Origin: Flavobacterium sp. WC2421
Lineage (GTDB): Bacteria > Bacteroidota > Bacteroidia > Flavobacteriales > Flavobacteriaceae
Length of the DNA stretch: 64,000 nt
Assembly (NCBI RefSeq): GCF_040822115.1
Contig: NZ_CP162004.1
Coordinates: 2,790,001 to 2,854,000, forward strand
Direction of reading: 5' to 3'
Shown: positions 38,437 through 59,554 of the stretch, in pieces
How positions within the stretch are numbered: the first letter of the stretch is position 1
Layout: each line of letters opens with the position of its first letter
Translations under genes and position numbers: made by a program
The notes under the pieces: generated by a model
The model's input: the letters and a program-made list of their open reading frames with translations, nothing else
Told to the model about the DNA's origin: nothing
Database searches by the model: none

Positions 38437-38441
38437 AGCTT

Positions 38442-42945: not shown

Positions 42946-43064
42946 TTTTATTTAAAACTATTAATTGTTCAAAAATATACATAATAACGATTAAAAGTAG
43001 TAAATAAATCAATATTGTACAAATAGAAGAGAATTTTGTAGAAATTAATGGCATTCATTTTTTA

Positions 43065-43072
43065 TAATTTTG
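43065..43072 (+). promoter_or_regulatory. -7 promoter element of the PhyH-type gene
   Basis: TAATTTTG fits TAnnTTTG, 30 nt before the start. TTTG at 43035 is 26 nt upstream, longer than usual, so an activator such as the divergent AraC may be needed. Confidence 0.5.
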
Positions 43073-43102
43073 AATTATTAATAATAACTAAATATTCAAA
43101 TA

Positions 43103-44101
43103 ATGGAAAATAAGGAAAAAACAATGACACCAAATATGGTGCCTACGATGGCAAATAATAATGCTCATAAAGACATTCCTGGAAATCCTTCAACGGCAAA
43201 ATCGAGTACTTTAAAATTGAATGATCGTTCTGATGGGAAGCCCTTACGTTTATTAACAGAAGATGATTGGATATTTTGGAAAGTCAACGGATATATTGTG
43301 ATAAAAAATGCTGTTCCAAAAGAGAATGCTAAAAAGATGGCTGACTTTTTATGGGAATTTGAAGAAAAAAATCAAAATGACCCCGAAACTTGGTACGCTC
43401 CACCAAGAGCCGAAATGCAAATGAAAGAACTTACTAATAGTGGTATGGTCGAAGTGTACAATCACCAATACCAGTGGGATAATAGACAAATGCAGAAAGT
43501 ATATGACGCATTTGTTGATATCTGGGGAACTGAGAAATTATGGGTGACTATTGATAGAGCTAATCTCAATTTGCCAATCAGACCTGGTTTTGATTTTAAA
43601 GGATTTATTCATTGGGATTATGATCCTGACACCAAGCCACAAAACGTTCAAGGAGTTCTTGCCTTAGCTGATCAAACGGATGAAAATATGGGAGGTTTTC
43701 AATGTATTCCTGATTTATATCGCAATTATGATACCTGGAAATTAACACAACCCGAAGATCGTAACCGTTTTAAACCAGATGTAACAGGATTAGAAGATAA
43801 ATTTGTAAAAGTAAAAATGGAAGCTGGGGATTTATTAATTTTCAATAGTACACAGCCACATGGGATACGGCCTAATATAACAAAGGATAAAGTGAGAATG
43901 GCACAATATATTTCTATGATGCCAGCAGAAGAAGATAATGAAGAGCTTAAACAATGGCGTATTAATTCTTGGAAAAATAGGGTGGCACCTGAAGGATATG
44001 CTTTTCCGGGAGATCCACGCAAATGGGAACAAACTAAATATGAAACTGCAGAGTTGACCGATTTAGGTAAAAAATTATTAGGACTTGATAAATGGGAATA
44101 A
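43103..44101 (+). CDS. PhyH-type Fe(II)/2-oxoglutarate dioxygenase
   Basis: A 332-aa cupin-fold dioxygenase of the phytanoyl-CoA dioxygenase superfamily. The iron facial triad is His170 and Asp172 in FIHWDYD and His253 in QPHGIRPN, with Arg256 placed to bind 2-oxoglutarate. The N-terminal 45 residues are polar and probably disordered. PhyH proteins hydroxylate small molecules; none here points to phytanoyl-CoA. Convergent with the glycoside locus across a shared terminator and divergent from an AraC gene, it may modify a sugar, inositol or glycoside substrate (inference). Confidence 0.85.
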   Translation: MENKEKTMTPNMVPTMANNNAHKDIPGNPSTAKSSTLKLNDRSDGKPLRLLTEDDWIFWKVNGYIVIKNAVPKENAKKMADFLWEFEEKNQNDPETWYAPPRAEMQMKELTNSGMVEVYNHQYQWDNRQMQKVYDAFVDIWGTEKLWVTIDRANLNLPIRPGFDFKGFIHWDYDPDTKPQNVQGVLALADQTDENMGGFQCIPDLYRNYDTWKLTQPEDRNRFKPDVTGLEDKFVKVKMEAGDLLIFNSTQPHGIRPNITKDKVRMAQYISMMPAEEDNEELKQWRINSWKNRVAPEGYAFPGDPRKWEQTKYETAELTDLGKKLLGLDKWE

Positions 44102-44131
44102 AAAAAGGGATACGAAAAGTATCCCTTTTTT
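44101..44131. terminator. Bidirectional intrinsic terminator
   Basis: AAAAAAGGGATAC (44101-44113) pairs perfectly with GTATCCCTTTTTT (44119-44131) around GAAAA. It serves the PhyH gene and the convergent nine-gene operon. Confidence 0.93.
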
Positions 44132-44137
44132 GTGGCT

Positions 44138-45013
44138 TTATATTAAGTTGTTCTTTATATAATTATAACTAGCAGCTGCAGATTCTATTGGATTAGGAAT
44201 GTAGTTACTTTCATGTTCCAAAAAGAAACGTTTCATTCCAGAAAGTTCCGATTGAGCAAAAATAGATTTAAAGTCAATAGTTCCAGTTCCTATCACAGCA
44301 TTAAATTCATGATTGGCTTTATCCATATCTTTTACATGCCACATTTTAAAACGGCCTGGATGTTCTTTAAATAATTGCAATGGATCATGGCCTGCACGTA
44401 CTACCCAATATAAATCCATTTCAAAATCAACTAATTTTTTATCAGTTTCATTTAGTAAAATTTCATAACCATTAGTTGCTCCGAATTTAGTAAATTCAAA
44501 ATCATGATTGTGATATGCTAATTTTAAACCAGCGGCCTTGCAAATTTCGGCTGCTTTATTAACTTTTAAGGCTAATTTTTTATAATCATCCCCAGTTTTA
44601 CCTCTTAAGTTCTCCACAACATAAGGAACAGTAATGTATTCACTACCTAATATATTAGCTGCTTCAGTGTAGGACTTAATTACATCTGTATTACCATTTT
44701 CTATATAACCATTAAAATCAAAATGATTACTCGTTGCTTTTAAATCATTGTCACAAAGCATTTTTTTGAAATCCTTAACTGATGTCCCAAAAAAACCTTT
44801 TGTGGGAGAAAAACCAAAAGTTTCCACTTCGTTAAATCCTATTTTTCCAACTTGAGCCAATACTTCTTTAACATCTTTTGGAAAAGTATCTCTCAATGTC
44901 CATAATTGAATTCCAATCGCTTTCTTTTTTGCAGCAAATGCAAAGGAAGGGGCAATGGCTAATGCACTTAGCGCCAAGCCACTATTTATTAAAAAATCTC
45001 TTCTTTTTATCAT
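44138..45013 (-). CDS. Exported TIM-barrel sugar isomerase/epimerase
   Basis: A 291-aa AP-endonuclease-2/xylose isomerase-like barrel with a twin-arginine-type signal (MIKRRDFLINSGLALSALA). Barrel and metal-binding features are IGIQLWTLRDTFP, LKLAYHNHDFEF, VDFEMDLYWV, MWHVKDMD and FFLEHE. It is the last gene of the minus-strand glycoside locus. Tat export implies a folded metalloenzyme working in the periplasm. Relatives include 3-keto-sugar epimerases/lyases; the exact reaction is unassigned. Confidence 0.87.
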   Translation of the reverse strand: MIKRRDFLINSGLALSALAIAPSFAFAAKKKAIGIQLWTLRDTFPKDVKEVLAQVGKIGFNEVETFGFSPTKGFFGTSVKDFKKMLCDNDLKATSNHFDFNGYIENGNTDVIKSYTEAANILGSEYITVPYVVENLRGKTGDDYKKLALKVNKAAEICKAAGLKLAYHNHDFEFTKFGATNGYEILLNETDKKLVDFEMDLYWVVRAGHDPLQLFKEHPGRFKMWHVKDMDKANHEFNAVIGTGTIDFKSIFAQSELSGMKRFFLEHESNYIPNPIESAAASYNYIKNNLI

Positions 45014-45031
45014 GAGTTTGTTTTTAGTTTA

Positions 45032-45928
45032 TTAGATATCACAAATTAGAATCGCTTTTCTCAAAGATTCTAATTTGTTAGCATTTTTAGGTATAAATTC
45101 TTGACCAATGAATCCCTTATAACCAGTTGCTGCGATTGCTTTCATAATTGCAACATAATTTAGCTCCTGAGTCTCGTCAATTTCATGTCGGCCGGGAACA
45201 CCAGCAGTGTGAAAATGAGCAATATATTGATGATTATCAGTAATATTTCTAATTACATCACCTTCATCAATTTGCATATGGTAGATGTCATAAAGTAATT
45301 TGAAGTTTTCTGTATTTAATCGTTTAGCCAATTCTACTCCCCATGATGTTCTGTCACATTGGTAATCATGATGGTCAATTTTACTATTTAAAAGCTCCAT
45401 CACTAAGGTAACATTGTGTTTTTCGGCCAGCGGAATTAACTTTTGTAAACCAGTAACACAATTTTGCCAACCTTCTTCATCCGTTTTACCTCTTCGGCTT
45501 CCACTGAAACAAATTAGATTTTTATATCCTGCATCAGCAACTAACGGAATCATTTCAGTATAATTCTTAATAAGCGCTTCATGAAATTGCAAATCGTTAA
45601 AACCATCTACTAAATTGAGTTCAGCACCATTACACATTGTTGAAACTAGATTATGTTTTTTCAATATTGGCCAATCTTTAGGGCCCACTAAATCAATTCC
45701 GGTGATTCCCATTTTTTTTACTTCAGTACAAAGCGTTTCAATATCAAAATCATTAAAGCACCAACGGGCAACAGAATGATTTAATTTTCCTTTTAATATA
45801 CCAGATGTCATATTACTTACTTCCTCTTTAGTATTGGCCATAGCAGAAAAGCCAGATGGAAATCCTAATACTGCAGTTCCAGCAAGGATTCCTTTTATTA
45901 CAGATCTTCTATTTATTTGATTACTCAT
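45032..45928 (-). CDS. Exported hydroxypyruvate-isomerase-like TIM-barrel protein
   Basis: A 298-aa barrel with a Tat-type signal (NRRSVIKGILAGTAVLG). The conserved metal residues lie in VTLVMELLNSKID, LLYDIYHMQIDEGD, AHFHTAGVPGRHEID and GFIGQEFIPK. HIGTAGxPGRxE-like sequence is characteristic of the hydroxypyruvate isomerase (Hyi/OtnI) subgroup. It sits 18 nt from the neighbouring exported isomerase. An isomerase or retro-aldol/lyase step on a keto-sugar in the periplasm is likely; hydroxypyruvate itself is an improbable substrate there. Confidence 0.87.
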   Translation of the reverse strand: MSNQINRRSVIKGILAGTAVLGFPSGFSAMANTKEEVSNMTSGILKGKLNHSVARWCFNDFDIETLCTEVKKMGITGIDLVGPKDWPILKKHNLVSTMCNGAELNLVDGFNDLQFHEALIKNYTEMIPLVADAGYKNLICFSGSRRGKTDEEGWQNCVTGLQKLIPLAEKHNVTLVMELLNSKIDHHDYQCDRTSWGVELAKRLNTENFKLLYDIYHMQIDEGDVIRNITDNHQYIAHFHTAGVPGRHEIDETQELNYVAIMKAIAATGYKGFIGQEFIPKNANKLESLRKAILICDI

Positions 45929-45939
45929 AAAAATTATAT

Positions 45940-47175
45940 TTAGGCTGCTTCAACTTTATTTTTACTTTTTTCATTGAATAAAGCAGCAAAAAATAAAAAT
46001 ACACCAAAAGCAATTGCAGCAGGAATAATCCAAACCATTTGCCAGTTAATTGCACCATCAATCATTTTGTAATTATCTGTAATCCATCCTGCAACTGCAA
46101 AACCAATTAACATACCAACTCCATAAGTAGCAAGAGTTATTAAGCCTTGTGCAGCACTTTTATATTTTTCTCCCGCTTTTGAGTTGGTATAAATTTGTCC
46201 AGCCACAAAGAAGAAATCATAACAAATACCATGCAATGCAATCCCAATAATAAGCATAAAACTCAAGTTATCCCCATTACCATAAGCAAACAAAGCATAA
46301 CGAATTGCCCAAGCAAGCATTCCTAACAAAATTGTTTTCTTGAATCCGAATCTTGTAAAAAACACTGGAAGCAAAAGCAATAATAAAGTCTCAGACACTT
46401 GACCTATAGCCATTTTCCCTGTTGGATTATCAATTCCTGCTGCAGTCAAAAAAGGATGCGCATTTTGATAATAAAACGCCAATGGAATACAGATAAGAAT
46501 TGAAGAAATAAAGAATACAGCAAAGTTTTTATCTTTTAATAATTTTAAGGCGTCAAACCCTAATAAATCACCAATTTTAATTTTCTCAGTAGAAGCAACC
46601 TTTGGAGGTGTTTTTGGTAACACAAAACTAAAAATACCTAATACTAATGATACTATTCCTGCAAGTAAAAATGTATTTTTTAGCATTCCACTAGAAACCC
46701 CTTCTACAGAATCCCAATGAAACAAATAACTAATTGATAAACCTGCTAAGATCCATCCAATTGTTCCCCAAACTCTAATGTTTGAAAATTCTTTTTCAGG
46801 ATCAGTCATTTGATTAAACGATACTGAATTTACTAGGGCCAATGTTGGCATAAATAGTATCATATATCCTAAAACAAAATAATAAAATACACTAACATCA
46901 TCCGACATATACATTTGATACATTAAAAATGCACCCACAAGGTGAAGAATTCCTAATATTTTCTCAGCATTAAAATAGCGGTCAGCTATCAATCCGATAA
47001 TAAACGGTGCTATGATTGCACCCCACGACTGTGTTGAAAAAACTGCAGCTGAATCAGCTCCAGAGGCTTTTAAATTACTTGCTAAAAAGGTTCCTAATGT
47101 TACGAACCACGCACCCCAGATAAAAAATTCTAGGAACATCATTATTGATAGTTTTATTCGTATTGTAGTATTCAT
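45940..47175 (-). CDS. MFS transporter of the nucleoside:H+ symporter type
   Basis: A 411-aa, 12-segment transporter. The N-terminal MMFLEFFIWGAWFVTLGTFL and later SFNQMTDPEKEFSNIRVWG and LHGICYDFFFVAGQIY match the NHS (NupG/XapB-like) family as represented in Bacteroidetes sugar loci. It should import the product of the periplasmic enzymes of this locus by proton symport; nucleoside transport is less likely given the neighbours (inference). No SusC/SusD pair is in the locus. Confidence 0.88.
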   Translation of the reverse strand: MNTTIRIKLSIMMFLEFFIWGAWFVTLGTFLASNLKASGADSAAVFSTQSWGAIIAPFIIGLIADRYFNAEKILGILHLVGAFLMYQMYMSDDVSVFYYFVLGYMILFMPTLALVNSVSFNQMTDPEKEFSNIRVWGTIGWILAGLSISYLFHWDSVEGVSSGMLKNTFLLAGIVSLVLGIFSFVLPKTPPKVASTEKIKIGDLLGFDALKLLKDKNFAVFFISSILICIPLAFYYQNAHPFLTAAGIDNPTGKMAIGQVSETLLLLLLPVFFTRFGFKKTILLGMLAWAIRYALFAYGNGDNLSFMLIIGIALHGICYDFFFVAGQIYTNSKAGEKYKSAAQGLITLATYGVGMLIGFAVAGWITDNYKMIDGAINWQMVWIIPAAIAFGVFLFFAALFNEKSKNKVEAA

Positions 47176-47236
47176 TGATTATTGGTTAGTTTATATATTT
47201 TGTTTTTAGTTTCTTACTCTTTAAATCCATTCCGGA

Positions 47237-47920
47237 TTATAATTCTTTTATTTCAATATTTTTGAACCAGACGTTTTCACCATGATCTTGCAAAGCAATT
47301 TTTCCAGTTTTAAATGTTCCAAAATCACTCCAAGCTTTAAATTTACTTCCAGCAACTAGTTTTTTCCAGTTGTCATCCCATAACATAGTTTTTACAACAG
47401 TCACTCCATTTAATATTAGAGTAAGTTTCCCTTTGTTGCAAATTACTTCAGCTGTATTCCATTCTCCAACAGCTTTTACAGGTTCAATATCATTTTTAAT
47501 CAAATCATATAAGTTTCCAGCTCTATGCTTGTCAATTTTTCCATCAGGATGACCCTCGTTATCCAAAACCTGCATTTCTAAACCTGTTTCGTATGTATTC
47601 TTGTATTTTGCAGGATCTTCATGGATGAAAAATATAATTCCGCTATTTGATTTAGGAGCTACTTTCCAATCTAACTTTAAATGAAAATTAGAATATTCCT
47701 TATTCGTAACAAGATCTCCTCCTTGACCATTTTCAGCAGCTGAAGGATCAAAATGTAGAACCCCTTTATCCACTTTCCATGCAGCACCTGCGTTTGTTTT
47801 TCCATAAGAATGCCATCCATTTGTTGTTTTACCATCAAACAGGCGAGTGAATTTTTTTTGGGCTTGAGTATTTTGCATAATGAAGATTAAGCCTAGTGAT
47901 AATACTATTTTCTTTATCAT
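47237..47920 (-). CDS. DUF1080 (3-keto-glycoside hydrolase/lyase-type) secreted protein
   Basis: A 227-aa protein with a Sec signal peptide (MIKKIVLSLGLIFIMQNTQA) and one concanavalin-like DUF1080 domain. It opens FTRLFDGKTTNGWHSYGK, with FHLKLDWKVAPKSNSGIIFF, YETGLEMQVLDNEGHPDGK and GKIALQDHGENVWFKNIEI. DUF1080 proteins have been reported to act on 3-keto-glucosides. In this locus it would cleave the glycosidic bond after a dehydrogenase forms the 3-keto sugar (inference from family and context). Confidence 0.9.
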   Translation of the reverse strand: MIKKIVLSLGLIFIMQNTQAQKKFTRLFDGKTTNGWHSYGKTNAGAAWKVDKGVLHFDPSAAENGQGGDLVTNKEYSNFHLKLDWKVAPKSNSGIIFFIHEDPAKYKNTYETGLEMQVLDNEGHPDGKIDKHRAGNLYDLIKNDIEPVKAVGEWNTAEVICNKGKLTLILNGVTVVKTMLWDDNWKKLVAGSKFKAWSDFGTFKTGKIALQDHGENVWFKNIEIKEL

Positions 47921-47930
47921 AATGGGATAT

Positions 47931-49400
47931 TTACAAAGTTAGATTGTTCCAACCTTGACGGTATTCTCTTTTTACAAATTGATTCACATCATCAAAATTG
48001 GTGATTCTCATGGCATCATTATCCCAAAGTAATTTTACAGAACGTCCTGGATATTTAGTTTTTCCACCTACTTCTTTTTGCACATCATAGCCTCTTATGG
48101 CTAAATTTGCCATCAATAAGGCTTCTGTCAAAGGGCCTGCAATTTCAAAAGGAGAACTTAACTCTTTTTTTCCGTGACCCGCAATTGCTGCTTCAATCCA
48201 TTGTTTATAATGCCCTTCTGAACCGTCAACAACTCTAGAGTATTTTTGAGCGATATTTAAATTTTCATTTTTGGTTAATGGAAGTAATCTCGGATTTCTA
48301 CCATATGTATCGCACATCATTTTTCCTTTAGTCCCAACAAATAAAGTACCATTTCCACCATCTCCAAAAATCTCATTTGGTTCTAATTCTAATGGTCTTT
48401 CAGGTTGAATACCACCATCCATCCAATGCAGAGTAACGTCTCCATTGGTTTTATTGGTTTTAGGAAATGTTAATGTAACATGACTTGATGGAGGACAACT
48501 TTCAGGGAAATACCCTCTTTTAAACTCATCTACATATACTGATCCAACACTACATTGAACATCTTTGGCGTATTTTAAATTTAAAACACTAAATGGAGCT
48601 TCAATTAAATGACAACCCATATCACCCAAAGCACCCGTTCCATAATCCCACCATCCTCTCCAGTTGAAAGGAACCAGTTTATCTACATAATTTTTTTGAG
48701 GAGCAGTACCCAACCATAAATCCCAATCTAATTCTTTTGGAATCTCAGTTTTACTAGTAGGCCAGGGGATACCTTGAGGCCAAACAGGACGGTCAGTCCA
48801 AGCATAAACAGTATGGACGTCTCCAATCAAATCTGCGTCATACCACTCTTTCATTATACGAGTACCATCATTTGAAGCACCTTGATTTCCCATTTGAGTA
48901 ACTACATTGTATTTCGCTGCAGCTTGAGTTAGAATTCTAGCTTCATAGATATCATGAGTTAACGGTTTTTGAACATAGACATGCTTTCCTAACTGCATTG
49001 CTGCAAGGGTTTGAATAGCATGGTTATGATCTGGTGTTGCTACTGAAACAGCATCAAAATTTTTGTGTTCTTTATCAAACATTTCTCTCCAGTCTTTATA
49101 ATATTTGGCTTTTGGAAACGCATTAACCGTTTTTGCTGCCCTTCTATCATCAACATCACAAAGAAAAGAAATTGAAGCTTTACCACTTTTATCGAACATG
49201 GCAATATCTGACTGTCCTTTACCGCCTACACCAATACTCGCAATTAATAAGCGATCACTAGGAGCAACAAATCCTCTTCCTAAAACATGTCTAGGAACAA
49301 TCATAAATGCCGCTGCGGCTAAAGCACTGGTTTTTATAAAATCACGTCGATTATTTATGATTTTACTTTCTTCAATTTTTTTAACTTTTTCTTTTTTCAT
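47931..49400 (-). CDS. Exported Gfo/Idh/MocA-family oxidoreductase
   Basis: A 489-aa protein with a Tat-type signal (NNRRDFIKTSALAAAAFMIV, about residues 16-35). The Rossmann half has IASIGVGGKGQSD, VATPDHNHAIQTLAA and VYVQKPLTHDIYEA with the family EKP-like Lys as QKP. The catalytic half has GALGDMGCHLIEAPF. Export of the NAD(P)-type protein by Tat allows folding with its tightly bound nucleotide before export, as in glucose-fructose oxidoreductase. It probably oxidises or reduces a hydroxyl of a glycoside in the periplasm. Confidence 0.9.
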   Translation of the reverse strand: MKKEKVKKIEESKIINNRRDFIKTSALAAAAFMIVPRHVLGRGFVAPSDRLLIASIGVGGKGQSDIAMFDKSGKASISFLCDVDDRRAAKTVNAFPKAKYYKDWREMFDKEHKNFDAVSVATPDHNHAIQTLAAMQLGKHVYVQKPLTHDIYEARILTQAAAKYNVVTQMGNQGASNDGTRIMKEWYDADLIGDVHTVYAWTDRPVWPQGIPWPTSKTEIPKELDWDLWLGTAPQKNYVDKLVPFNWRGWWDYGTGALGDMGCHLIEAPFSVLNLKYAKDVQCSVGSVYVDEFKRGYFPESCPPSSHVTLTFPKTNKTNGDVTLHWMDGGIQPERPLELEPNEIFGDGGNGTLFVGTKGKMMCDTYGRNPRLLPLTKNENLNIAQKYSRVVDGSEGHYKQWIEAAIAGHGKKELSSPFEIAGPLTEALLMANLAIRGYDVQKEVGGKTKYPGRSVKLLWDNDAMRITNFDDVNQFVKREYRQGWNNLTL

Positions 49401-49443
49401 GCTGATCGAAAGATTTTAATTATTGATTGAATAAATGAGAAAT

Positions 49444-50496
49444 TTAAAGCCCTAATATTTTTCTGTTAAATTCTTGACTACTATTTACCGAAGCAAAATC
49501 ATCAAAGGCCTTATCAGTAACCTTAATTATATTATTCTTTATAAACTCAGCACCTTCACGAGCACCATCTTCTTGATTTTTTATACAGCATTCCCATTCC
49601 ATTACAGCCCAACCTTTAAAATCATATTGAGAAAGTTTGCTGAAAATAGTTTTAAAATCAACTTGACCATCTCCCGGAGAACGATAACGCCCTGCACGGT
49701 TGGCCCAACTTTGATATCCACCAAATGTTCCTTGCTTCCCAGTTGGATTAAATTCGGCATCTTTTACATGAAATGCTTTTATTCTTTCATGATAAAAATC
49801 AATGTATTGGATATAGTCTAATTGTTGAAGTACAAAATGAGAAGGATCATATAAAATACATGCTCTTGAATGGTTGTTGACCGCCTTCAAGAACATTTCG
49901 TAGGTTTCTCCATCAAATAAATCTTCACCAGGATGAATCTCATAACAAAGATCCACACCATTTTGATCAAATTCATTTAAAATAGGCAACCAACGTTTTG
50001 CTAATTCAGCAAATCCTTCTTCAACTAAACCTGCTGGTCTTTGCGGCCAAGGGTGAAAATATTGCCAAAGCAAAGAACCACTAAAAGTGGCATGAGCATT
50101 TAAACCTAAATTTTGAGATGCTTTTGCAGCATATTTTAATTGCTGCACTGCCCATTCTTGTCTTGCTTTTGGTTTTCCATGCACATTTGCTGGAGCAAAT
50201 GCATCAAATAAATCATCATAAGCAGGGTGAACAGCAACAAGTTGCCCTTGTAAATGTGTAGATAATTCGGTTATTTCTAAACCGTAGGAAGCAATTTTTC
50301 CTTTTAATTCATCTGCATATATTTTGCTTTCGGCAGCTTTTTGTAGATCAATAAACCGAGTATCTAACGTAGGCATTTGGATGCCTTTAAAACCTAAATC
50401 TGCAGCCCATTTACAAATTCCGTCTAAAGAATTAAAAGGGGCTTCATCACTGATAAACTGTGCTAAAAATACTGCTGGACCTTGTATTGTTGTCAT
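49444..50496 (-). CDS. Cytoplasmic TIM-barrel sugar isomerase/epimerase
   Basis: A 350-aa barrel without a signal peptide, in contrast to the two exported isomerases nearby. The metal site is drawn from VDLCYEIHPGEDLFDG, CILYDPSHFVLQQ, IKAFHVKDAEFNP and GWAVMEWECC. It is followed by a cytoplasmic Gfo/Idh/MocA oxidoreductase upstream in the operon. Together these two would process the imported keto-sugar or keto-glycoside (inference). Confidence 0.87.
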   Translation of the reverse strand: MTTIQGPAVFLAQFISDEAPFNSLDGICKWAADLGFKGIQMPTLDTRFIDLQKAAESKIYADELKGKIASYGLEITELSTHLQGQLVAVHPAYDDLFDAFAPANVHGKPKARQEWAVQQLKYAAKASQNLGLNAHATFSGSLLWQYFHPWPQRPAGLVEEGFAELAKRWLPILNEFDQNGVDLCYEIHPGEDLFDGETYEMFLKAVNNHSRACILYDPSHFVLQQLDYIQYIDFYHERIKAFHVKDAEFNPTGKQGTFGGYQSWANRAGRYRSPGDGQVDFKTIFSKLSQYDFKGWAVMEWECCIKNQEDGAREGAEFIKNNIIKVTDKAFDDFASVNSSQEFNRKILGL

Positions 50497-50523
50497 TTTT
50501 TATTCTTTTTGTCTACTTAGATT

Positions 50524-51690
50524 TTATAATATATAAGGCGACCATTTTTTATCTGAATTAGCAGATGCTACTACACTATCAATAAATGCCATTCCTCGCA
50601 ATCCATCTTCAATAGAAGGAAAATCTAACATTTCTGGGGTAGGTTCTATACCGTCTAATTTGCAGCATAATGTTAAGGCAAAATTGCGATAGATATTTGC
50701 AAATGCTTCCAAATATCCTTCTGGATGTCCGCCTGGAGTTCGGCAGTTATGAGTCGCAAATGATGATAGATGACCATAATTAGAACCCGCTCTTAAAATT
50801 TGAGTAGGTTCATCAAGCCATTTTACAATCAAAGTATTGGGATCATGTTGCAACCATTCAATTCCGCCTTTTTCACCATAGACTCTAATTTTTAAAGCAT
50901 TTTCTTCACCAGCAGCTACTTGAGAAGCCATTAAAACTCCTTTAGCTCCATTATCAAATTTCAACATTACAGCTCCGTCATCATCCATTACACGTCCTTC
51001 GACAAGTGTATTTAATTCAGCGCAGATGTCTGTAATCTTTGAACCAGTAATGTATTCAGCTAGATGTGCAGCATGAGTTCCAATGTCTCCCATTACAGAA
51101 CTTTTTCCTGCTTTTTTTGGATCTGTTCGCCAAGCAGCTTGTGCATTTCCTTCTCTTTCAGATAATTTACTTAACCATCCTTGAGGGTATTCTACCCAAA
51201 CTTTTCTGATTTTTCCTAGTTTACCTTCTTTAAGCATTGCTTTAGCTTGCTTTACCATTGGATACCCTGAGTAGGTATGTGTCAAGCATAGAATTAATCC
51301 CGTTTCTTCCAATTTTTGTTCCAATAGTTTTGCTTCTTCCAAAGAAAAAGTAATTGGTTTTTCGATTACAACATTAAAACCATAATCTAGTGCCATCATT
51401 GCAGGAGCAAAATGAGCAAAATTAGGAGTAACAATAGTAACAAAATCCATGCGCTCACCAACTGGTAAGTTGGCTTCCGCTTTGATCATTTCTTCATAAG
51501 AAGTATAGGTTCTGGATTCGGGAAGGAATAACGCTTTACCAGAAGCAATTGCTGTTTCGGGTGTTATGCTTAATGCTCCACAACTTAATTCAATAAGACC
51601 GTCCATATTGGCTGCTAAGCGGTGTATTGCGCCTATAAAAGCATCTTGGCCACCGCCGATCATACCCATTTTTAATTTTCTATTCATCAT
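50524..51690 (-). CDS. Cytoplasmic Gfo/Idh/MocA-family oxidoreductase
   Basis: A 388-aa NAD(P)-dependent oxidoreductase lacking a signal peptide. Rossmann motif MGMIGGGQDAFIGAIHR, then VTPNFAHFAPAMMALD and VVIEKPITFSLEEAKLLE (EKP motif, catalytic Lys). The second domain shows SVMGDIGTHAAHLAEYITG with the conserved Asp/His pair. It would interconvert keto- and hydroxy-sugars, for instance reducing a 3-keto-hexose to glucose. The upstream GMC gene is 8 nt away. Confidence 0.9.
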   Translation of the reverse strand: MMNRKLKMGMIGGGQDAFIGAIHRLAANMDGLIELSCGALSITPETAIASGKALFLPESRTYTSYEEMIKAEANLPVGERMDFVTIVTPNFAHFAPAMMALDYGFNVVIEKPITFSLEEAKLLEQKLEETGLILCLTHTYSGYPMVKQAKAMLKEGKLGKIRKVWVEYPQGWLSKLSEREGNAQAAWRTDPKKAGKSSVMGDIGTHAAHLAEYITGSKITDICAELNTLVEGRVMDDDGAVMLKFDNGAKGVLMASQVAAGEENALKIRVYGEKGGIEWLQHDPNTLIVKWLDEPTQILRAGSNYGHLSSFATHNCRTPGGHPEGYLEAFANIYRNFALTLCCKLDGIEPTPEMLDFPSIEDGLRGMAFIDSVVASANSDKKWSPYIL

Positions 51691-51698
51691 TTATAATC

Positions 51699-53402
51699 CT
51701 AAATGTTTCCTTTATTTAATTCTTTAACTGCATAATCACAAGCACGTGCTGTTAATGCCATGAATGTTAATGATGGATTTTGACATGCAATAGAAGGCAT
51801 ACAAGAACCATCTGTTACAAATACATTACTTACTTCATGCATTTGATTCCATTTGTTTAAAACGGATGTTTTAGGGTCATTACCCATTCTCGCAGTTCCC
51901 ATTTCATGTATTGCCATTCCAGGGTAACAATCGTTATCATAAGTTTGAACATTTTTAATTCCTGAAGCTTCAAGCATTTCTGCAGCATCATTCATCATGT
52001 CAATTCTCATTTTTTTCTCGTTCTCTTTGTATTCACAATCAATAGCTAAAACAGGTTGGCCCCATTTGTCTTTTTTATCATGATTGATATATACTTTGTT
52101 TTCGTAGTAAGGTAACATTTCTCCAAAACCACCTAATCCCATATTCCATGTATTCGCAGGAAGACTTAATTTGTCTTTGAAATCACCACCAAATGATAAT
52201 TCAGCAACCTCTTCATGCCAAGGGTTTCTACTAGCACCACCTTGATAACCAAAACCTCTTAAATAATCTCTTTTATCATTACCTACATTTTGATATCTAG
52301 GTACATAAACACCATTGGCTCTACGTCCATAAGTGTATTTATCCTCAAAACCTTCGGCAGTTCCTGAAGCTCCACAACGAAAATGGTGATCCATTAAGTT
52401 GTGACCTAATTGTCCACTAGCATTTCCTAAACCTTCTGGATGTGCTTCAGAAGTAGAATTTAATAAGATAAAAGTAGAACCTAATGTAGAACCGTTTACA
52501 AAAACAATTTTAGCATAAAACTCCATTGTCTCATTAGTTTCTGCATCAATAACCATTACTCCTTTTGCTTTTTTAGTGTCTTTATCATAAATAATATGAT
52601 TTACAATAGAGTAAGGTCTAACCGTTAATCTGTTAGTAGCCATCGCTGCAGGTAGAGTAGAGGACTGTGTGCTAAAGTAAGCACCAAAAGGACATCCACG
52701 ACTACATAAATTTCTATATTGACAGCTTCCACGTCCATTATGAGGAACAGTTAAATTAGCAGTACGTCCAATAGTTAAGATTCTAGTTCTATTGTAATGT
52801 TTTTCCATTCTTTCTTTAACAGACTTCTCCACACAATTTAAATCCATTGGAGGTAAAAAATGCCCATCAGGTAGTAAAGGCCAATTTTCATTTTGACCAC
52901 TTATCCCTGCAAATTTCTCTGCATAATCGTACCATGGAGAAATATCTTTATAACGAATAGGCCAGTCATTACCATGACCGTCTTTCGCATTATCTTCAAA
53001 ATTGTGATCACTAAAACGGTAGCTTTGACGTCCCCACATTAAAGATTTTCCACCAACGTGAAACCCTCTATACCAATCAAATCTTTTGTCTTCAGTATAT
53101 GGGCATTCTAAATCATTAACCCACCATTTTTCATTCGCTTCCTGGTATGGATAATCTCTAATTTGTACTGGATGTGTTCTTTTTTCTTCTTCTGTATGTT
53201 TTCCCGCATGCTTAAACTCCCATGGGTTTTTCATTGCAGAATCGTAATCTTTGATGTGTTCGATGTTCATTCCGCGTTCTAACATCAAAACTCTTAATCC
53301 TTTTTCGGTTAGTTCTTTTGCAGCCCAACCACCGCTTATACCTGAACCTACAACAATTGCGTCATAAGTATTCTCTTCTTTTAAATTTGTATTTATATTC
53401 AT
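51699..53402 (-). CDS. GMC oxidoreductase, catalytic subunit of a membrane sugar/glycoside dehydrogenase
   Basis: A 567-aa flavoprotein. The FAD-binding motif AIVVGSGISGGWAAKEL lies at about 15-31, with GGKSLMWGRQSYRF (about 117-130) and the C-terminal active-site block HEMGTARMG, then NPSLTFMALTARACDYAV. Cys227, Cys233 and Cys237 form C-x5-C-x3-C, the spacing used for the [3Fe-4S] cluster of FAD-glucose dehydrogenase alpha subunits. It has no signal of its own, but the adjacent small subunit carries a Tat signal, so the pair is probably co-exported. It likely oxidises C3 of glycosides. Confidence 0.92.
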   Translation of the reverse strand: MNINTNLKEENTYDAIVVGSGISGGWAAKELTEKGLRVLMLERGMNIEHIKDYDSAMKNPWEFKHAGKHTEEEKRTHPVQIRDYPYQEANEKWWVNDLECPYTEDKRFDWYRGFHVGGKSLMWGRQSYRFSDHNFEDNAKDGHGNDWPIRYKDISPWYDYAEKFAGISGQNENWPLLPDGHFLPPMDLNCVEKSVKERMEKHYNRTRILTIGRTANLTVPHNGRGSCQYRNLCSRGCPFGAYFSTQSSTLPAAMATNRLTVRPYSIVNHIIYDKDTKKAKGVMVIDAETNETMEFYAKIVFVNGSTLGSTFILLNSTSEAHPEGLGNASGQLGHNLMDHHFRCGASGTAEGFEDKYTYGRRANGVYVPRYQNVGNDKRDYLRGFGYQGGASRNPWHEEVAELSFGGDFKDKLSLPANTWNMGLGGFGEMLPYYENKVYINHDKKDKWGQPVLAIDCEYKENEKKMRIDMMNDAAEMLEASGIKNVQTYDNDCYPGMAIHEMGTARMGNDPKTSVLNKWNQMHEVSNVFVTDGSCMPSIACQNPSLTFMALTARACDYAVKELNKGNI

Positions 53403-53504
53403 TCCAGCGCTATTAAATTTGATTAATGTGAAGATTATTTTTTTAAAAAGTACTATTTTGTATCCTCCATATAATGGATACGAAATTTATTTTTGAAAGG
53501 TTTA

Positions 53505-54065
53505 CTATGTTGCCCAAGCTTTTTGCCCAGGTTTGTATTCAGCACTTCCATCATATCTTCCAGGAACAGCCAAATATTCACGTGCTTGAGTACACCCAAT
53601 TTCTGATGAAAAATATCCTAAAATGGTTAAATCTCTAGCGATAATAAAAAAGCTTGGTTTATTAATATCAACTAATGACTCTTTTCTTGTTTCTTCAACA
53701 ATTTTAGTACGGTCTTCTATTGATAGCGATTTAAAGTCTTTATTAAATTGACTCATGCATTTATCTTGCATTTCTTTCATACCTGTTGCAAAAGTTTGTT
53801 GCAAATCGGCTGGATAACAATCATTAATCATCATAGGAATAAACGCACCCAAACCTGCTGCTTTCGCTCCAGGCGAAGCTTTAGTTGTTGGTATCAATAA
53901 GTCAGCGAATTCAGATAGAAAATCTTCATCTGTTGCTGAAAAAGAGAATTTTTTGTCGTCATTTTCAGGAATAACAAAATCCTTAATTAAAATCCCCACT
54001 GTTGTAGCAGAGATGACACCTCCAAGTACAAGTGCCAAGTTTTTTATTGCTTTACGTCTATCCAT
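53505..54065 (-). CDS. Gluconate 2-dehydrogenase subunit 3-family small subunit
   Basis: A 186-aa protein with a twin-arginine signal (MDRRKAIKNLALVLGGVIS) and the subunit-3 fold (FLSEFADLLIPTTKASPGAKAAGLGAFI is represented here by FADLLIPTTKASPG, then MMINDCYP). It ends RYDGSAEYKPGQKAWAT, typical of the family. Such subunits chaperone and export the GMC subunit through Tat and stay bound to it. It is the first gene of the minus-strand locus, about 100 nt upstream of the GMC gene. A cytochrome c subunit for electron transfer is not encoded nearby. Confidence 0.9.
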   Translation of the reverse strand: MDRRKAIKNLALVLGGVISATTVGILIKDFVIPENDDKKFSFSATDEDFLSEFADLLIPTTKASPGAKAAGLGAFIPMMINDCYPADLQQTFATGMKEMQDKCMSQFNKDFKSLSIEDRTKIVEETRKESLVDINKPSFFIIARDLTILGYFSSEIGCTQAREYLAVPGRYDGSAEYKPGQKAWAT

Positions 54066-54554: not shown

Positions 54555-55748
54555 TTATTCCTTTTCAAATAGTCCAATAGTACCACCAACCCAATTCTTA
54601 TCTTTATTGAATTTTACGCCAATCATTTCTCCACGACTTAATCGAACCAAATTGCAAAGTAGAGTAGGTGCAACATCATTTTTTTTCCAGGTGCAAAGAA
54701 CACGGACTTCCGCCTTTACTTTTCCTTCTGGTGATTGAACAATGGGCATGTAATTTACTTTTTTCTGAAGTATATAAAGTTCTTTTTCGACCACAGCTTC
54801 AATATCTTCTTTTTTCACATGAAAAATCACTCCAGATCCAGAAAAAGAGAATAATGGTTTTAAAACATAATTTTCTAAATCCTCTGGTATTTCAGTTAAT
54901 TCACTTAAGAGTGTAGTCTCTATAAAGTATTTCCCTTTTAAGAAAGGCAAGATAAACTTACTTATTCTAAAAAACCAATTGGGATGTCCTGCCCATTCTA
55001 CATCAAGATCGTCTGAAAAATGGAAATTTAATTTTAAATCAGTGCGCAAATCCAATTCATCAAAAATCACTCGATTGTAAATTCTTCTTACAAGAATCTC
55101 ATTACCTTCTTTATTTTTATAAAAAAGTTGCTTTCCTTTTTTAATCAGTTCCGTAACGCAAACTATAGGTATACCTAAATCTCTTTTGCAATAATAAAAG
55201 TCGATTTTAGTGTTTTGCTTTTCAGGTTCAATTTCAAGCAGAATAACATTTTCTTTAGGGTAATTATTACAAATTACTTCTTCGAGATTTTGCATGTATT
55301 CTTCTTCAGTAATTCCAGTAATAAATGGAGTTAGTTCATTTATAAATGGATAGTGTTTCTTAAATTTATTAAATAAATTAACTTGATAATTAAACAAAGA
55401 TGGGAATCCTTGTACTTCTATCAATTTAGGAATAATGATTCCATCTTCTTCACAAATTCCGAAATCAATCGCTAAAAAAGTCGTGTGATTATCTTCATTT
55501 GGAACTTTATGATTTAGTTCTAATGATTTATCAGTTAGCTTTTTAAAGTCTTTACTCTGAATTAAAGCTATAACTTCATTCGAGCCTTCGATTAATTGTT
55601 TTTTTAAATCTTTAGATATAAAAAAAGGAGTTTCTCCTAATCGAAAAGTAGGTTCGTAATCAAAATCAGAGGCAATATCATCTTTAAATTCCTGATATTT
55701 TTTATCTGTAAATTGTTCATTAAATAATTTTCGATACTTTGGAATCAT
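54555..55748 (-). CDS. ATP-grasp-like ligase (first of the amidoligase cluster, last in transcription)
   Basis: A 397-aa protein with no signal peptide. The ATP-grasp core appears near the C-terminus: YVLKPLFSFSGSGVIFHV (ATP-binding Lys and Gly/Ser loop, about residues 291-308), then EVRVLCTWKK and KFNKDKNWVGGTIG. The N-terminal half (FLAIDFGICEEDGIIIPKLI, VEWAGHPNWFFRIS) looks like a glutathionylspermidine-synthase or permuted ATP-grasp relative. It begins 14 nt after the amidotransferase gene. It likely forms an amide or peptide bond; substrate unknown. Confidence 0.75.
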   Translation of the reverse strand: MIPKYRKLFNEQFTDKKYQEFKDDIASDFDYEPTFRLGETPFFISKDLKKQLIEGSNEVIALIQSKDFKKLTDKSLELNHKVPNEDNHTTFLAIDFGICEEDGIIIPKLIEVQGFPSLFNYQVNLFNKFKKHYPFINELTPFITGITEEEYMQNLEEVICNNYPKENVILLEIEPEKQNTKIDFYYCKRDLGIPIVCVTELIKKGKQLFYKNKEGNEILVRRIYNRVIFDELDLRTDLKLNFHFSDDLDVEWAGHPNWFFRISKFILPFLKGKYFIETTLLSELTEIPEDLENYVLKPLFSFSGSGVIFHVKKEDIEAVVEKELYILQKKVNYMPIVQSPEGKVKAEVRVLCTWKKNDVAPTLLCNLVRLSRGEMIGVKFNKDKNWVGGTIGLFEKE

Positions 55749-55762
55749 AAGATTTGGGGTGA

Positions 55763-56593
55763 TTAATTAGACATGATTTTTTTTGTTTTTATCAAGTCGT
55801 TTATTGCAGTTCGAAGAAAATTTGGAATCAAGGTTTCGTTTGTTCTGTATATTTTATCGTCATCCATTAGGTCTTCAAGCATATTTCTAAACTTTCTTTT
55901 CCCTTTCATATTTCTAATTTTATCCTTCGCTTCTTTATTTCTTAAGTGGGAAACAAAACTAATAGGATCGGCCTCTGGATGGAATTGTGTTCCTACAAAA
56001 TAATCTGTAAAACGTACTGCCATTATAGCACGTTCATATTGAACATGATCTCTAATTTTTTCTAATGAAATTATCTTTGCTCCTTTTTTCTTAAATACAC
56101 TTAGCTTAGGTTGAACTACTTGATAATCTCTAGAATCAATTGCATAAAAAGGATCGCTTAATCCTTCAAAAAGCGGGTCTAAAAGGCCTTCTTTAGTTTT
56201 ATGAATCGTCATTACGCCAAATGAAGTATCGTTCCTTTTTGTTATTTCGGCCAAACCAAAATGTTTACAAGCCATTTGAAAAGAGTGACAAATAAACAAA
56301 ACATGTTTTTTTATCTCATTTTCGGTATTCCACTTGGTTAAAGCATCAATGAATTCATAGTATTTCGTATCCCAAGTTCCATCACCAATTAACGGATTTC
56401 CCGGACCACCAGTAGAAATATAAATATCAAACAGGTTGATTTCAGGTAATTCACATTTTCCCCTTACATCAAATATTTTAAAGTCTACAATAGGGTTAAA
56501 TCTACTAATAACATCAATAATACAACGCATGCCTTGATTGGGCTCGCCATTATACATGTCTAAAAGTGCTATTGTTATCTTTTTCTTGCTCAT
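55763..56593 (-). CDS. Class I glutamine amidotransferase-like protein
   Basis: 276 aa from the ATG at 56593; an in-frame ATG at 56620 would add nine residues. The catalytic triad is Cys102 in LFICHSFQMACKHFG, His205 and Glu207 in GTQFHPEADP. The N-terminal YISTGGPGNPL is the oxyanion region. The C-terminal 60 residues are a basic helical extension not found in GuaA-type domains. In a cluster with amide-forming ligases it may supply ammonia from glutamine or hydrolyse a gamma-glutamyl bond. It starts 42 nt after the YbdK-like gene. Confidence 0.9.
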   Translation of the reverse strand: MSKKKITIALLDMYNGEPNQGMRCIIDVISRFNPIVDFKIFDVRGKCELPEINLFDIYISTGGPGNPLIGDGTWDTKYYEFIDALTKWNTENEIKKHVLFICHSFQMACKHFGLAEITKRNDTSFGVMTIHKTKEGLLDPLFEGLSDPFYAIDSRDYQVVQPKLSVFKKKGAKIISLEKIRDHVQYERAIMAVRFTDYFVGTQFHPEADPISFVSHLRNKEAKDKIRNMKGKRKFRNMLEDLMDDDKIYRTNETLIPNFLRTAINDLIKTKKIMSN

Positions 56594-56635
56594 TTTTAAA
56601 TCTTTATAAATAATCCGCAAAGTTAATCTATTATT

Positions 56636-57742
56636 TTATAATCCTTTTGTGAATTCTCCGGTTATAAAATCAACCACTTTTGTCAAGTCATTTGTTTTTT
56701 CGAAAACGGCCAACTGTTTTGCGGCGCCAGTTCCATTTTTTAGAATTTCATGAACATAATTAATGTGATCACGGCTTCCTAATTCATCAACTACATCGTC
56801 AACAAATTCAAGTAATTCTAAAATTAGCATTCTTGTTTCAACTTCTTTTTGAAGTCCAAAATCAATCATATGTCCTTCAATTCCATAACGAGCAGCACGA
56901 AATTTATTTTCTTTTATTAGCGCTAATCTATAAATATTAAAACTCATGTTGTGTAAGTTTAATTTATACAATTTAGCAACAACAGCTTGAATTACAGAAA
57001 CTATACACATCGTCTCCTCAACTGTTAAACTCATATCACAAATACGAAATTCAATGGTATCATAGAAAGGATGCAAGCGTAAATCCCACCAAATTTTCTT
57101 TGGATTATCAATGCAATTAGTTTTTACTAAAGTCTCCAAAAAGTTATCATAAGAGGCAACCGAATCAAAATATTCTGGTAAACCGGTTCGTGGAAATTTA
57201 TCAAAAACTTTTGTTCGAAACGATTTATACCCTGTTTGTCGACCTTCCCAAAAAGGGGAGTTAGTTGATAGCGCAAAAATATGCGGAAGAAAATAGCAAG
57301 CCTGATTCATTAATTGCAATCCAATCTCTCTGTTTTCGATACCTACATGACAATGCATTCCAAAGATTAAATTGGATCGAGCAGCATCTTGTAATTCATT
57401 AACAATCGTGTGATAACGGGGATCATCTGTAATGGGTTGGTCTTGCCATTTAGAAAAAGGATGGGTTCCAGCACCACCAACAATCAAATTTTGCTTATCG
57501 GCTAATTCAACAATTTTAGTTCTTAAAAACTTAATCTCTTTCTCCGCTTCATCAACATTTTTGCAAATATTAGTCCCTACTTCCACAACAGATTGATGCA
57601 TTTCTGCTTTTACCTGTTCATTTAGTATAATTTTAGCTCCATCAACAATTTTTGATAGATGGGAGCGTAAGTCTCTTGTTTCGGGATCTATAATTTGATA
57701 TTCTTCTTCAACACCAAGTGTAAAAACAGGTAATTTTTTCAT
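56636..57742 (-). CDS. YbdK-type carboxylate-amine ligase (GCS2 family)
   Basis: A 368-aa member of the GCS2 family. The nucleotide/metal-binding Glu run is TLGVEEEYQIIDPE (Glu12-14). FGMHCHVGIENRE (about 129-141) and FYDTIEFRICDMS provide further active-site residues. YbdK-like enzymes show weak glutamate-cysteine ligase activity; the true role is generally unknown. Its place among two ATP-grasp genes, an amidotransferase and an esterase suggests a step in making a peptide-like metabolite rather than glutathione. Confidence 0.92.
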   Translation of the reverse strand: MKKLPVFTLGVEEEYQIIDPETRDLRSHLSKIVDGAKIILNEQVKAEMHQSVVEVGTNICKNVDEAEKEIKFLRTKIVELADKQNLIVGGAGTHPFSKWQDQPITDDPRYHTIVNELQDAARSNLIFGMHCHVGIENREIGLQLMNQACYFLPHIFALSTNSPFWEGRQTGYKSFRTKVFDKFPRTGLPEYFDSVASYDNFLETLVKTNCIDNPKKIWWDLRLHPFYDTIEFRICDMSLTVEETMCIVSVIQAVVAKLYKLNLHNMSFNIYRLALIKENKFRAARYGIEGHMIDFGLQKEVETRMLILELLEFVDDVVDELGSRDHINYVHEILKNGTGAAKQLAVFEKTNDLTKVVDFITGEFTKGL

Positions 57743-57784
57743 TTCTATTTTTTTAGGAGCATTTTCCAGCTATTCGATACAATC

Positions 57785-57807
57785 CATCTCGTGAAAAACG
57801 AGATGGG
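57785..57807. repeat. Intercistronic hairpin within the amidoligase cluster
   Basis: CCATCTCGT (57785-57793) pairs perfectly with ACGAGATGG (57799-57807) around GAAAA. On the minus-strand transcript no U-run follows, so it is an mRNA hairpin rather than an evident terminator; a partial terminator could still tune downstream expression. Confidence 0.6.
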
Positions 57808-57851
57808 ATTTTCTCTTCTATCTGGGCTAGGGAATTGGATTTAATGGAATA

Positions 57852-58799
57852 CTATTTTATTGCAACAGCTTCCTTCATAAAAGTTCCCCAAGTCAAATTC
57901 ATTTTTCCTGGCTTTTGTTTTTTTGCGGCAGCAATAGCCATTTTTGCTGATTCTTCAACCACCCATTCAAAATTTTCAGCACCAACTGATGTTAGTTCTG
58001 CATCAGGAGCTGGATTACCAAAATCAATTGCATAAGGAATTCCATCACGTACAGCAAATTCAACCGTATTAAAATCATAACCTAATCCTTTACAAAGTCT
58101 TAATGTATAATCTTTTATGGTTGCTAGAAGTTTTTTATCTACTGGTGGACCATCAATTACATAACGCAAATGATGCGGATTTCTAGGTTCATATTGCATA
58201 ATGCGCACTGCTTTGCAGCCTAGGCAATAGACTCTAAAATATTCAGTAAAAACAATTTCTTCTTGAAGCATCATTACGAGTTGCCCTGTTTCCTGATGTT
58301 TCTCCCAAAATTCTTCTTTATTTTCTAATCGATACACATTTTTCCAGCCACCACCAGCATACGGTTTCATATAAGCAGGAAATTTTATGTAATCAAAAAT
58401 AGCTTCCCAGTTCATTGGGTATTTCAAATTTCTAAATGATTTTCCTGTAGTGTCTGTAGGATGTTCTGCCGAAGGAAGGAGTACTGTATTAGGTAAAGGT
58501 ACACCAAGAGTATCGGCTAATGAATTATTGAAAAATTTATCATCTGCGCTCCACCAGAATGGATTATTAATCACATTTGTTCCAGTTAAAGCAGCGTTTT
58601 TTAGATACGCTCTATAAAAAGGAACATCTTGTGAAATTCGGTCTATTATTACTGCGTATTCACCGTCTTTATTTTGAACGACCATATCTATACCAACCGC
58701 TTCAGCTATAATATCTTTTTCGTTTTTTGAATTAACTCTGTCAATAAATGCTTGAGGAAAGGTATCTTCCATTCCAAATAAAATTCCGATTTTTTTCAT
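57852..58799 (-). CDS. RimK-like ATP-grasp ligase
   Basis: A 315-aa ATP-grasp enzyme. The N-terminal Rossmann-like part opens KKIGILFGMEDTFPQAFID. The nucleotide loop is FPAYMKPYAGGGWKNVYRL (about 142-160), the hinge MMLQEEIVFTEYFRVY, and the metal site TVEFAVRDGIPYAIDFGNP (about 254-272, with Glu and Asp/Asn ligands). It resembles D-Ala-D-Ala ligase/RimK-like amidoligases. It lies 41 nt after the esterase gene and 109 nt before the YbdK-like gene in transcription order. Confidence 0.85.
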   Translation of the reverse strand: MKKIGILFGMEDTFPQAFIDRVNSKNEKDIIAEAVGIDMVVQNKDGEYAVIIDRISQDVPFYRAYLKNAALTGTNVINNPFWWSADDKFFNNSLADTLGVPLPNTVLLPSAEHPTDTTGKSFRNLKYPMNWEAIFDYIKFPAYMKPYAGGGWKNVYRLENKEEFWEKHQETGQLVMMLQEEIVFTEYFRVYCLGCKAVRIMQYEPRNPHHLRYVIDGPPVDKKLLATIKDYTLRLCKGLGYDFNTVEFAVRDGIPYAIDFGNPAPDAELTSVGAENFEWVVEESAKMAIAAAKKQKPGKMNLTWGTFMKEAVAIK

Positions 58800-58840
58800 T
58801 TTGATATATTTTTTCTTGATTAGTTAATTTAGTAGTAGGA

Positions 58841-59554
58841 CTAATAAAATTTTATTCTTGATAAATAATGTGGAAACATTTCTTTCCAAACTGGCCAATC
58901 ATGCTGTCTATCTGGGCGAACATCCAGCCAATGATGCACATTTCTATCACTAAGTACTTTACTTAATTTTAGATTAGCATCATAACAGATATCCCAATTT
59001 GAAGTCCCTAAAACAATATCCATGTTCCATAATTCATAATCTTCTAGACCGTATAAGTAATCTAAAGGACTATTGTAAAATACATCGTCATTATGAAATC
59101 CGTCCATAAAACTTTTAATGTCAAAAGCGCCACTCATAGAAAATAAATGACTTACATATCCTGGATGTCTAAAAGCAAAATTTGCTGCATGATAACCACC
59201 AAAACTGCAACCAGCAACTACCACTTTACCTGATGGAGTGTTGTTTTTTACTTTTTCCACAATTTCATGACAAATCATTTTGTCATACCAAACATGATTT
59301 TCTATGCGATGCACTGGGTGAATTTGTTTATTGTAAAAACTGTCTTTATCAATACTGTCCGGACAATAAATTTGAATTAATCCCTGTTCAATAAACCATT
59401 TTGCCGATTCGATGAGTCCCATATCTTTGTTCTCATGAAAACTTCCCATAGATGTTGGAAATAAAATCACTGGATAGCCCGAATGACCAAATACTAACAT
59501 TTCAATCTCTCTATTTAGGTTTGGAGAATACCATTTGAAATATTCCTCTTTCAT
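58841..59554 (-). CDS. Esterase-family alpha/beta hydrolase
   Basis: A 237-aa cytoplasmic hydrolase (COG4947-like). The nucleophile elbow is VVAGCSFGGYHAAN (Ser117), and His lies in DRQHDWPVWKEMFP (about 222). It opens YFKWYSPNLNREIEMLVFG with GYPVILFPTSMGSFHENK. It is the first gene of the five-gene minus-strand cluster. It may hydrolyse an ester or thioester in the metabolite made by the ligases, or act as an acyl transferase (inference). Confidence 0.87.
   Translation of the reverse strand: MKEEYFKWYSPNLNREIEMLVFGHSGYPVILFPTSMGSFHENKDMGLIESAKWFIEQGLIQIYCPDSIDKDSFYNKQIHPVHRIENHVWYDKMICHEIVEKVKNNTPSGKVVVAGCSFGGYHAANFAFRHPGYVSHLFSMSGAFDIKSFMDGFHNDDVFYNSPLDYLYGLEDYELWNMDIVLGTSNWDICYDANLKLSKVLSDRNVHHWLDVRPDRQHDWPVWKEMFPHYLSRIKFY

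Follow-up and report, generated by a model that had tools for sequence, protein, structure and literature searches.

A candidate two-operon, four-ligase pathway to a small peptide-like metabolite in Flavobacterium sp. WC2421 and other Bacteroidota

What would a bacterium make with a row of adjoining genes for ligases of several amide-forming families? The question is raised by five consecutive minus-strand genes (E, D, C, B, and A; 54555–59554) in the window analyzed here, a 64,000-nucleotide stretch of Flavobacterium sp. WC2421 (positions 2,790,001–2,854,000 of NZ_CP162004.1) that is part of the genome's single 3.83-Mb contig. We propose, with a probability of roughly 0.6, that these genes (operon 1) act together with a second set elsewhere in the window (X, P, and F; operon 2) in one pathway independent of nonribosomal peptide synthetases (NRPS), in which four carbon-nitrogen (C-N) ligases make a small peptide-like metabolite. 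The basis is gene content and order, likely active-site residues, the folds of D and A, the co-occurrence of D, A, and F, and the way in which the histories of D, C, E, and F run in parallel; from these we infer a small-molecule product, an order of steps, and all of the substrates. Assembly would be stepwise and ATP driven, without ribosome or NRPS, and would use four different kinds of ligase in turn. F, of the L-amino acid ligase type, would make or prime a dipeptide; C and D, of the GCS2/YbdK and RimK types respectively, would attach amino acid or acidic units; and A, a ligase of the glutathione/glutathionylspermidine synthetase type, would attach the last amine or amino acid. B might supply ammonia for an amide or remove a gamma-glutamyl group, with esterases E and X and aminopeptidase P trimming or recycling the product.

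The first gene of operon 1, E (58841–59554), encodes a 237-residue esterase-like alpha/beta hydrolase that scores above the cut-offs of PF00561 (28.5 bits) and PF00756 (24.1 bits). D (57852–58799) is a 315-residue RimK/LysX-type ATP-grasp ligase; it has no match in a Pfam scan and does not reach the NCBIfam rimK_fam threshold (TIGR00768, E = 6.5e-06, 25.7 bits, cut-off 143.4). By family scans, C (56636–57742, 368 residues) is a YbdK-family (GCS2) carboxylate-amine ligase, scoring 199.7 bits for PF04107 and passing the YbdK thresholds (NF010039, 512 bits, cut-off 371; TIGR02050, 285.5 bits, cut-off 176.4). B is class I glutamine amidotransferase-like (PF00117, 33.7 bits, cut-off 22.8). Its listed open reading frame (ORF) extends to a TTG at 56620, and the true start is probably the ATG at 56593, giving 55763–56593 and 276 residues, the median length of the family. 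The last gene, A (54555–55748), encodes a 397-residue glutathione/glutathionylspermidine-synthetase-type ATP-grasp ligase whose sole family match, GSP_synth (PF03738, 14 bits), lies below the cut-off of 29.3, and in which the family scan reported no amidase domain.

E-D-C-B-A is not an accident of this genome. We scanned one-per-species genomes with an alignment of D and kept the best 80 of at least 554 confirmed relatives, so near relatives dominate the counts; loci up to L062 are mostly Flavobacterium, as are the named proteins closest to D, and L063–L096 form a second group. Order and orientation are kept in 73 of the 80 Bacteroidota loci. Three of the seven exceptions are truncated by contig ends (L027, L083, and L085), so the order holds in 73 of 77, and the clustering exceeds chance. 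L064, L072, and L093 have no C between D and B; in L064 and L072, both close to a contig end, E was also not found upstream of D. L063 has neither B nor A downstream of C. In 15 nearer loci, E, D, and C adjoin in every case, with part of B in 14 (short loci stop there). Median gaps over the 73 loci are 32, 29, 40, and 11 bases, spacing that is operon-like, and the pairwise identities of the five proteins are correlated (Spearman 0.72–0.83; 73 sequence sets, window included).

Residues likely, by analogy, to be catalytic are kept as well. At least 98% of 77–80 complete sequences per protein (window included, those cut by contig ends omitted) conserve Ser117, Asp188, and His218 in E; Cys111, His214, and Glu216 in B (285-residue numbering); Lys145, Glu247, Asp259, and Asn262 in D; and Lys297, Asp95, Glu111, and Gln113 in A, where the likely metal-site residues precede the ATP lysine. 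Alignment A1 covers 6 of 15 D sequences, and alignments A3, A4, A5, and A7 cover 13, 10, 14, and 11 of the sequences in hand, A7 omitting L067. The conserved operon therefore carries at least two genes of ATP-dependent C-N ligase families with their likely active-site residues retained, A having two departures from a reference site described below. A first-pass annotation had listed these five ORFs, singled out Ser117 of E and an intact Cys-His-Glu triad in B, counted three amide-forming ligase families, and predicted recurrence of the neighborhood in relatives and of ATP-binding residues in D and A; all of this is borne out by the order and residue counts above.

The DNA in and beside operon 1 has further features. 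A Flavo-1 RNA (RF01705, 68.2 bits; 57759–57832, minus strand) occupies most of the D-C gap. It lies at the same site and strand in six (L017, L019, L023, L025, L035, and L062) of seven scanned loci, picked for a similar-looking gap; in several other Flavobacterium loci the gap, at 18–69 bases, is too short for it. Further copies occur elsewhere in those loci, so the RNA acts like a dispersed element. Among L063–L096, 20 of 34 loci (manual count) have another esterase-family relative on the opposite strand, next to E or to the site where E would be. In L027, from a record titled Lentimicrobium sp. MAG, D is 94% identical to that of the window and sits on an 8-kb contig, so the assignment may be a binning error.

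Do the five genes make up the whole system? The first-pass annotation treated them as a self-contained cluster; the genes are real, and the unit we propose comprises no fewer than eight, split over two operons. When ORFs surrounding the 80 loci were clustered (the 45 largest families listed, annotated in part), an esterase, an M17 aminopeptidase, and an ATP-grasp family were often seen past A, for the most part on the opposite strand. F, the ATP-grasp family, is near operon 1 in 20 of the 80 loci, 7 of them beyond L062. Searching the window's genome for F gave a match inside the window itself, in a plus-strand run at 35869–39656 with gaps of 0 and 5 bases. This run, operon 2, comprises X (35869–37005), a 378-residue PF00756 esterase (100.7 bits) whose N-terminal extension resembles, by eye, a carbohydrate-binding or early-set domain; P (37006–38436), a 476-residue M17 leucyl aminopeptidase by family scan (362.6 bits); and F (38442–39656), a 404-residue ATP-grasp ligase of the L-amino acid (dipeptide) ligase type (ATP-grasp_4, 31.6 bits, cut-off 27). 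Sequence relatives of F in the PDB are solved L-amino acid ligases (4wd3, E = 1e-17; 3vot, 8e-07; BacD, 1e-04).

Operon 2 is about 15 kb from operon 1 in the window and near it in some relatives. In L023, L034, and L044, genes of DUF4240 and M1 peptidase type and then F come after A, interrupted by no more than one further listed ORF (gene types judged by eye against the window's genes, themselves family-scanned). The window keeps this order, with about 12 kb (42109–54065) parting the DUF4240 gene from A. By eye this block is mostly of sugar-metabolism type (a GMC-type oxidoreductase, Gfo/Idh-type dehydrogenases, sugar-isomerase-type proteins, and an AraC-type regulator); its one family-scanned part, 53505–54065, is Gluconate_2-dh3. 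Four families of the block come after A in other Flavobacterium loci.

Co-occurrence across the phylum ties F to operon 1. We used D, A, and F as queries (E 1e-20) against 395 Bacteroidota genomes from 170 genera and found D in 134 genomes (89 genera), A in 114 (73 genera), and F in 80 (52 genera), D being the commonest of the three. Without correction for phylogeny, D and A occur together in 110 genomes, D accompanies F in all 80 genomes with F, and 66 genomes have all three. Physical linkage is loose: starts of D and A are more than 12 kb apart or on different contigs in 48 of 110 genomes, and those of D and F in 68 of 80, figures that draft assemblies inflate. D positions were tallied for 128 of the 134 genomes; both A and F are absent from the other six (G066, G145, G343, G413, G425, and G445). 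A single contig of G134 carries D and F at a distance of 0.9 Mb.

The genes also seem to share a history. D is patchy within the genus: besides the window's genome, 11 of 36 others of the genus carry it. Spread on plasmids found no support, as D had no match among 72,556 plasmid records (E 1e-5). Loci titled Algoriphagus, Belliella, Indibacter, Aquiflexum, and Pararhodonellum encode D proteins 81%–87% identical to that of the window, as against just 70%–71% in Winogradskyella and Polaribacter, which belong to the same family as Flavobacterium. We compared D, C, E, and F across orders, with RecA as a control. Three genomes of family f22, in another order, are 80%–84% identical to the window for D, 77%–79% for C, 76%–78% for E, and 69%–70% for F. 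The values for eight genomes of the same family or order are 65%–69% (D), 55%–63% (C), and 37%–60% (E), and F, present in five of them, is 52%–53% identical. RecA behaves in the opposite manner (78%–80% for the f22 genomes versus 82%–86%). Because all four proteins are closer to f22 than to their own family, both operons seem, on these four proteins, to have crossed between orders, either jointly or in parallel.

We tentatively extend this to a peptide cofactor or stress metabolite, so far undescribed, that environmental Bacteroidota would share across the phylum, possibly made by a split eight-gene pathway whose four unrelated peptide ligases have moved between orders as a functional set though the operons are often unlinked. 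D is found in about one third of the phylum sample and is well conserved (69% mean identity between loci beyond L062 and the mostly Flavobacterium group), as would suit a product of importance more than an optional antibiotic. Linking the two operons defines a gene set for deletion and metabolomics, and makes the candidate pathway a target for the discovery of new metabolites and its four little-studied ligases a resource for amide synthesis. The ligase families are already known, and the eight-gene, two-operon set itself appears not to have been described; open-licence papers, mostly surveyed at listing level, held nothing naming it, which is weak evidence.

With P, E, and X all hydrolases, a catabolic role has to be weighed, in which the ligases gamma-glutamylate an amine or peptide for breakdown, on the model of the PuuA/PuuD route. 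B, with its class I amidotransferase fold, could act as a stand-alone gamma-glutamyl hydrolase. Six Dyadobacter-type loci (L069, L077, L082, L089, L090, and L092) have a class III aminotransferase (by eye) after A, and ten loci within L017–L062 have an oxidoreductase family there. However, four separate ligases exceed the needs of such a route, none of the eight proteins is a PuuA-type ligase of glutamine synthetase fold, and no oxidase or dehydrogenase was recognized in families common to both locus groups (among the 45 largest, partly annotated). Scavenging of this kind is distinctly unlikely.

The folds of A and D were examined by structure prediction. The model of A, built with 13 sequences (predicted local distance difference test, pLDDT, 88.0), matches over its full length the fold of YgiC/YjfC, glutathione synthetase, and glutathionylspermidine synthetase, and aligns with residues 211–618 of glutathionylspermidine synthetase/amidase chains. 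Asp95 and the Glu111-x-Gln113 motif lie upstream of ATP Lys297, as in this fold. Cp1B, a characterized relative of A, acts on free small substrates with a site of R139, D141, E163, and N165; the papers drawn on here are PMC12568646 and PMC8939145. The first-pass description of A as a second ATP-grasp-like ligase thus holds for the ligase fold and can be narrowed to the glutathione/glutathionylspermidine synthetase/YgiC type, with the two departures already mentioned.

For D, VIA-align places LysX/ArgX and RimK closest, one of the RimK entries also containing the protein substrate RpsF. Single-sequence PDB searches returned no relatives for A or B and unconvincing ones for D, and profile searches gave weak matches only. 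D of many loci beyond L062 carries a tail rich in lysine, alanine, and proline, highly variable in length and up to roughly 150 residues; examples are L066, L076, L087, L089, L090, and L095, and the Flavobacterium loci have none. The end of the L066 tail looks, by eye, like a helix-hairpin-helix segment.

Several of these observations weigh against a small-molecule pathway. Its substrates and product are putative. In A, residues matched to the Cp1B site by motif spacing differ twice: two positions ahead of the first metal Asp, Arg gives way to Ala, Gln, or Thr in 13 of 13 sequences, and E-x-N is E-x-Q. The model of D (14 sequences) has a mean pLDDT of just 76.8, and its top Foldseek matches are D-alanine ligases, the graspetide enzyme PsnB, and ArgX/LysX, rather than RimK. 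RimK, LysX, and ArgX modify proteins, so D may do so too, and lysine/alanine-rich C-terminal tails in many genera would be odd for a small-molecule enzyme. The co-occurrence is also incomplete and carries no phylogeny correction: of 134 genomes with D, 24 lack A, 54 lack F, and 10 lack both, and A is found without D in four (G201, G211, G276, and G374).

The RimK/LysX-like fold of D and its lysine-rich tails make protein tagging or tailoring the main rival. D would add glutamate or short peptides to a protein, A, C, and F would make or cap the tag, and B, E, X, and P would remove it. Both the protein substrates of the nearest VIA-align folds and the tails in Pedobacter, Dyadobacter, Winogradskyella, and other genera fit this model. 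Against it, L-amino acid ligases like F are established to use free small substrates, as does Cp1B, and no conserved small protein was found beside the operon among ORFs that do not overlap larger ones. We consider tagging unlikely, and favor the metabolite pathway.

A ribosomally made precursor would be expected if the ligases matured a graspetide or another ribosomally synthesized and post-translationally modified peptide. We clustered 459 small ORFs in and around the operon (20–79 residues, not overlapping larger ORFs, in loci with E and A). The largest similar group spans six loci, all beyond L062, and no group is widely common, in agreement with the first-pass remark that a precursor peptide is absent. 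VIA-align also scores D higher with RimK (21.1) than with PsnB (18.2), PsnB being among its Foldseek matches. We give this idea next to no credence.

The locus also has variants. A was not found at E 1e-20 in 14 genomes with D and F. We fetched the surroundings of D from ten of these (L125–L132, L134, and L135) and of F from one more, leaving G092, G161, and G180 aside. Seven of the ten stretches (L125, L127, L129, L130, L132, L134, and L135) have a permuted-ATP-grasp-like protein of 451–475 residues near D; L126 has a 453-residue ORF at that position, known by length alone, and the fetched stretches of L128 and L131 have none near D. The order is D, permuted ATP-grasp, B, esterase, F in L125, where E was not seen, and E, D, permuted ATP-grasp, B, esterase in L127. 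The genome of L133 (G310) lacks both A and F, and L133 is arranged as L127. Of the two proteins scanned, that of L125 passes the PF14403 cut-off of 32 bits (37.3) and that of L127 falls below it (23.7); the esterases score 44.6 and 46 bits, respectively. PF14403 relates to the permuted ATP-grasp/alpha-E/N-terminal nucleophile (NTN) hydrolase tagging systems. The L125 protein's 120 best database relatives include 11 with an organism name, 8 of them Rhodothermales/Rhodothermaceae/Rhodothermia and 3 Bacteroidetes/Bacteroidota. C was not recognized in the L125–L135 stretches around D. Judging by gene position, the permuted ATP-grasp seems to replace C and A in relatives matching Rhodothermales. 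The YbdK ligase of the first-pass annotation is not constant: it is absent from its place between D and B in L064, L072, and L093, and was not recognized in these variants. Taken as a whole, the first-pass interpretation is partly supported.

The pathway invites comparison with the glutathione/glutathionylspermidine/trypanothione route, which likewise has a GCS-family ligase, a second ATP-grasp ligase, a third with the glutathionylspermidine synthetase/glutathione synthetase fold, and a possible amidase. By family or fold, C, D, and A with B as the amidase parallel the GshA-GshB-glutathionylspermidine synthetase/amidase set, and might make a similar thiol in place of another cellular thiol. 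In contrast to that route, D is of RimK type and not GshB, A has no amidase domain and lies below the family cut-offs, and F, an aminopeptidase, and esterases are added, while C is missing from some loci. A scores 12.2 bits against glutathione synthase (TIGR01380, cut-off 299), far too low, as is its glutathionylspermidine synthetase score, and neither model was reported for D at E 0.1. BshC, for bacillithiol, is present in 384 of the 395 genomes and in 132 of the 134 with D, including that of the window; D occurs in 2 of the 11 genomes without BshC (G166 and G293). D and BshC are therefore not exchanged, and with BshC nearly universal we rejected thiol replacement as very unlikely.

Other known systems share parts of the proposed metabolite pathway. 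D resembles RimK and LysX/ArgX in fold, but is far below the RimK-family cut-off, has variable lysine-rich tails in some genera, and has no identified partner protein. The fungal E-64 pathway (Cp1B with an amide bond synthetase) is also NRPS independent and forms successive amide bonds, one by a ligase with the fold of A; E-64 is, however, fungal and a known product, and the eight genes here include no epoxide-forming oxygenase and no ANL-type amide synthetase. F is a sequence relative of the L-amino acid ligases (4wd3, BL00235, and BacD), but accompanies D across the phylum sample and not an antibiotic cluster. Iyer, Aravind and colleagues reportedly predicted amidoligase networks in 2009, with ATP-grasp, GCS2, amidotransferase, and hydrolase genes in conserved neighborhoods.

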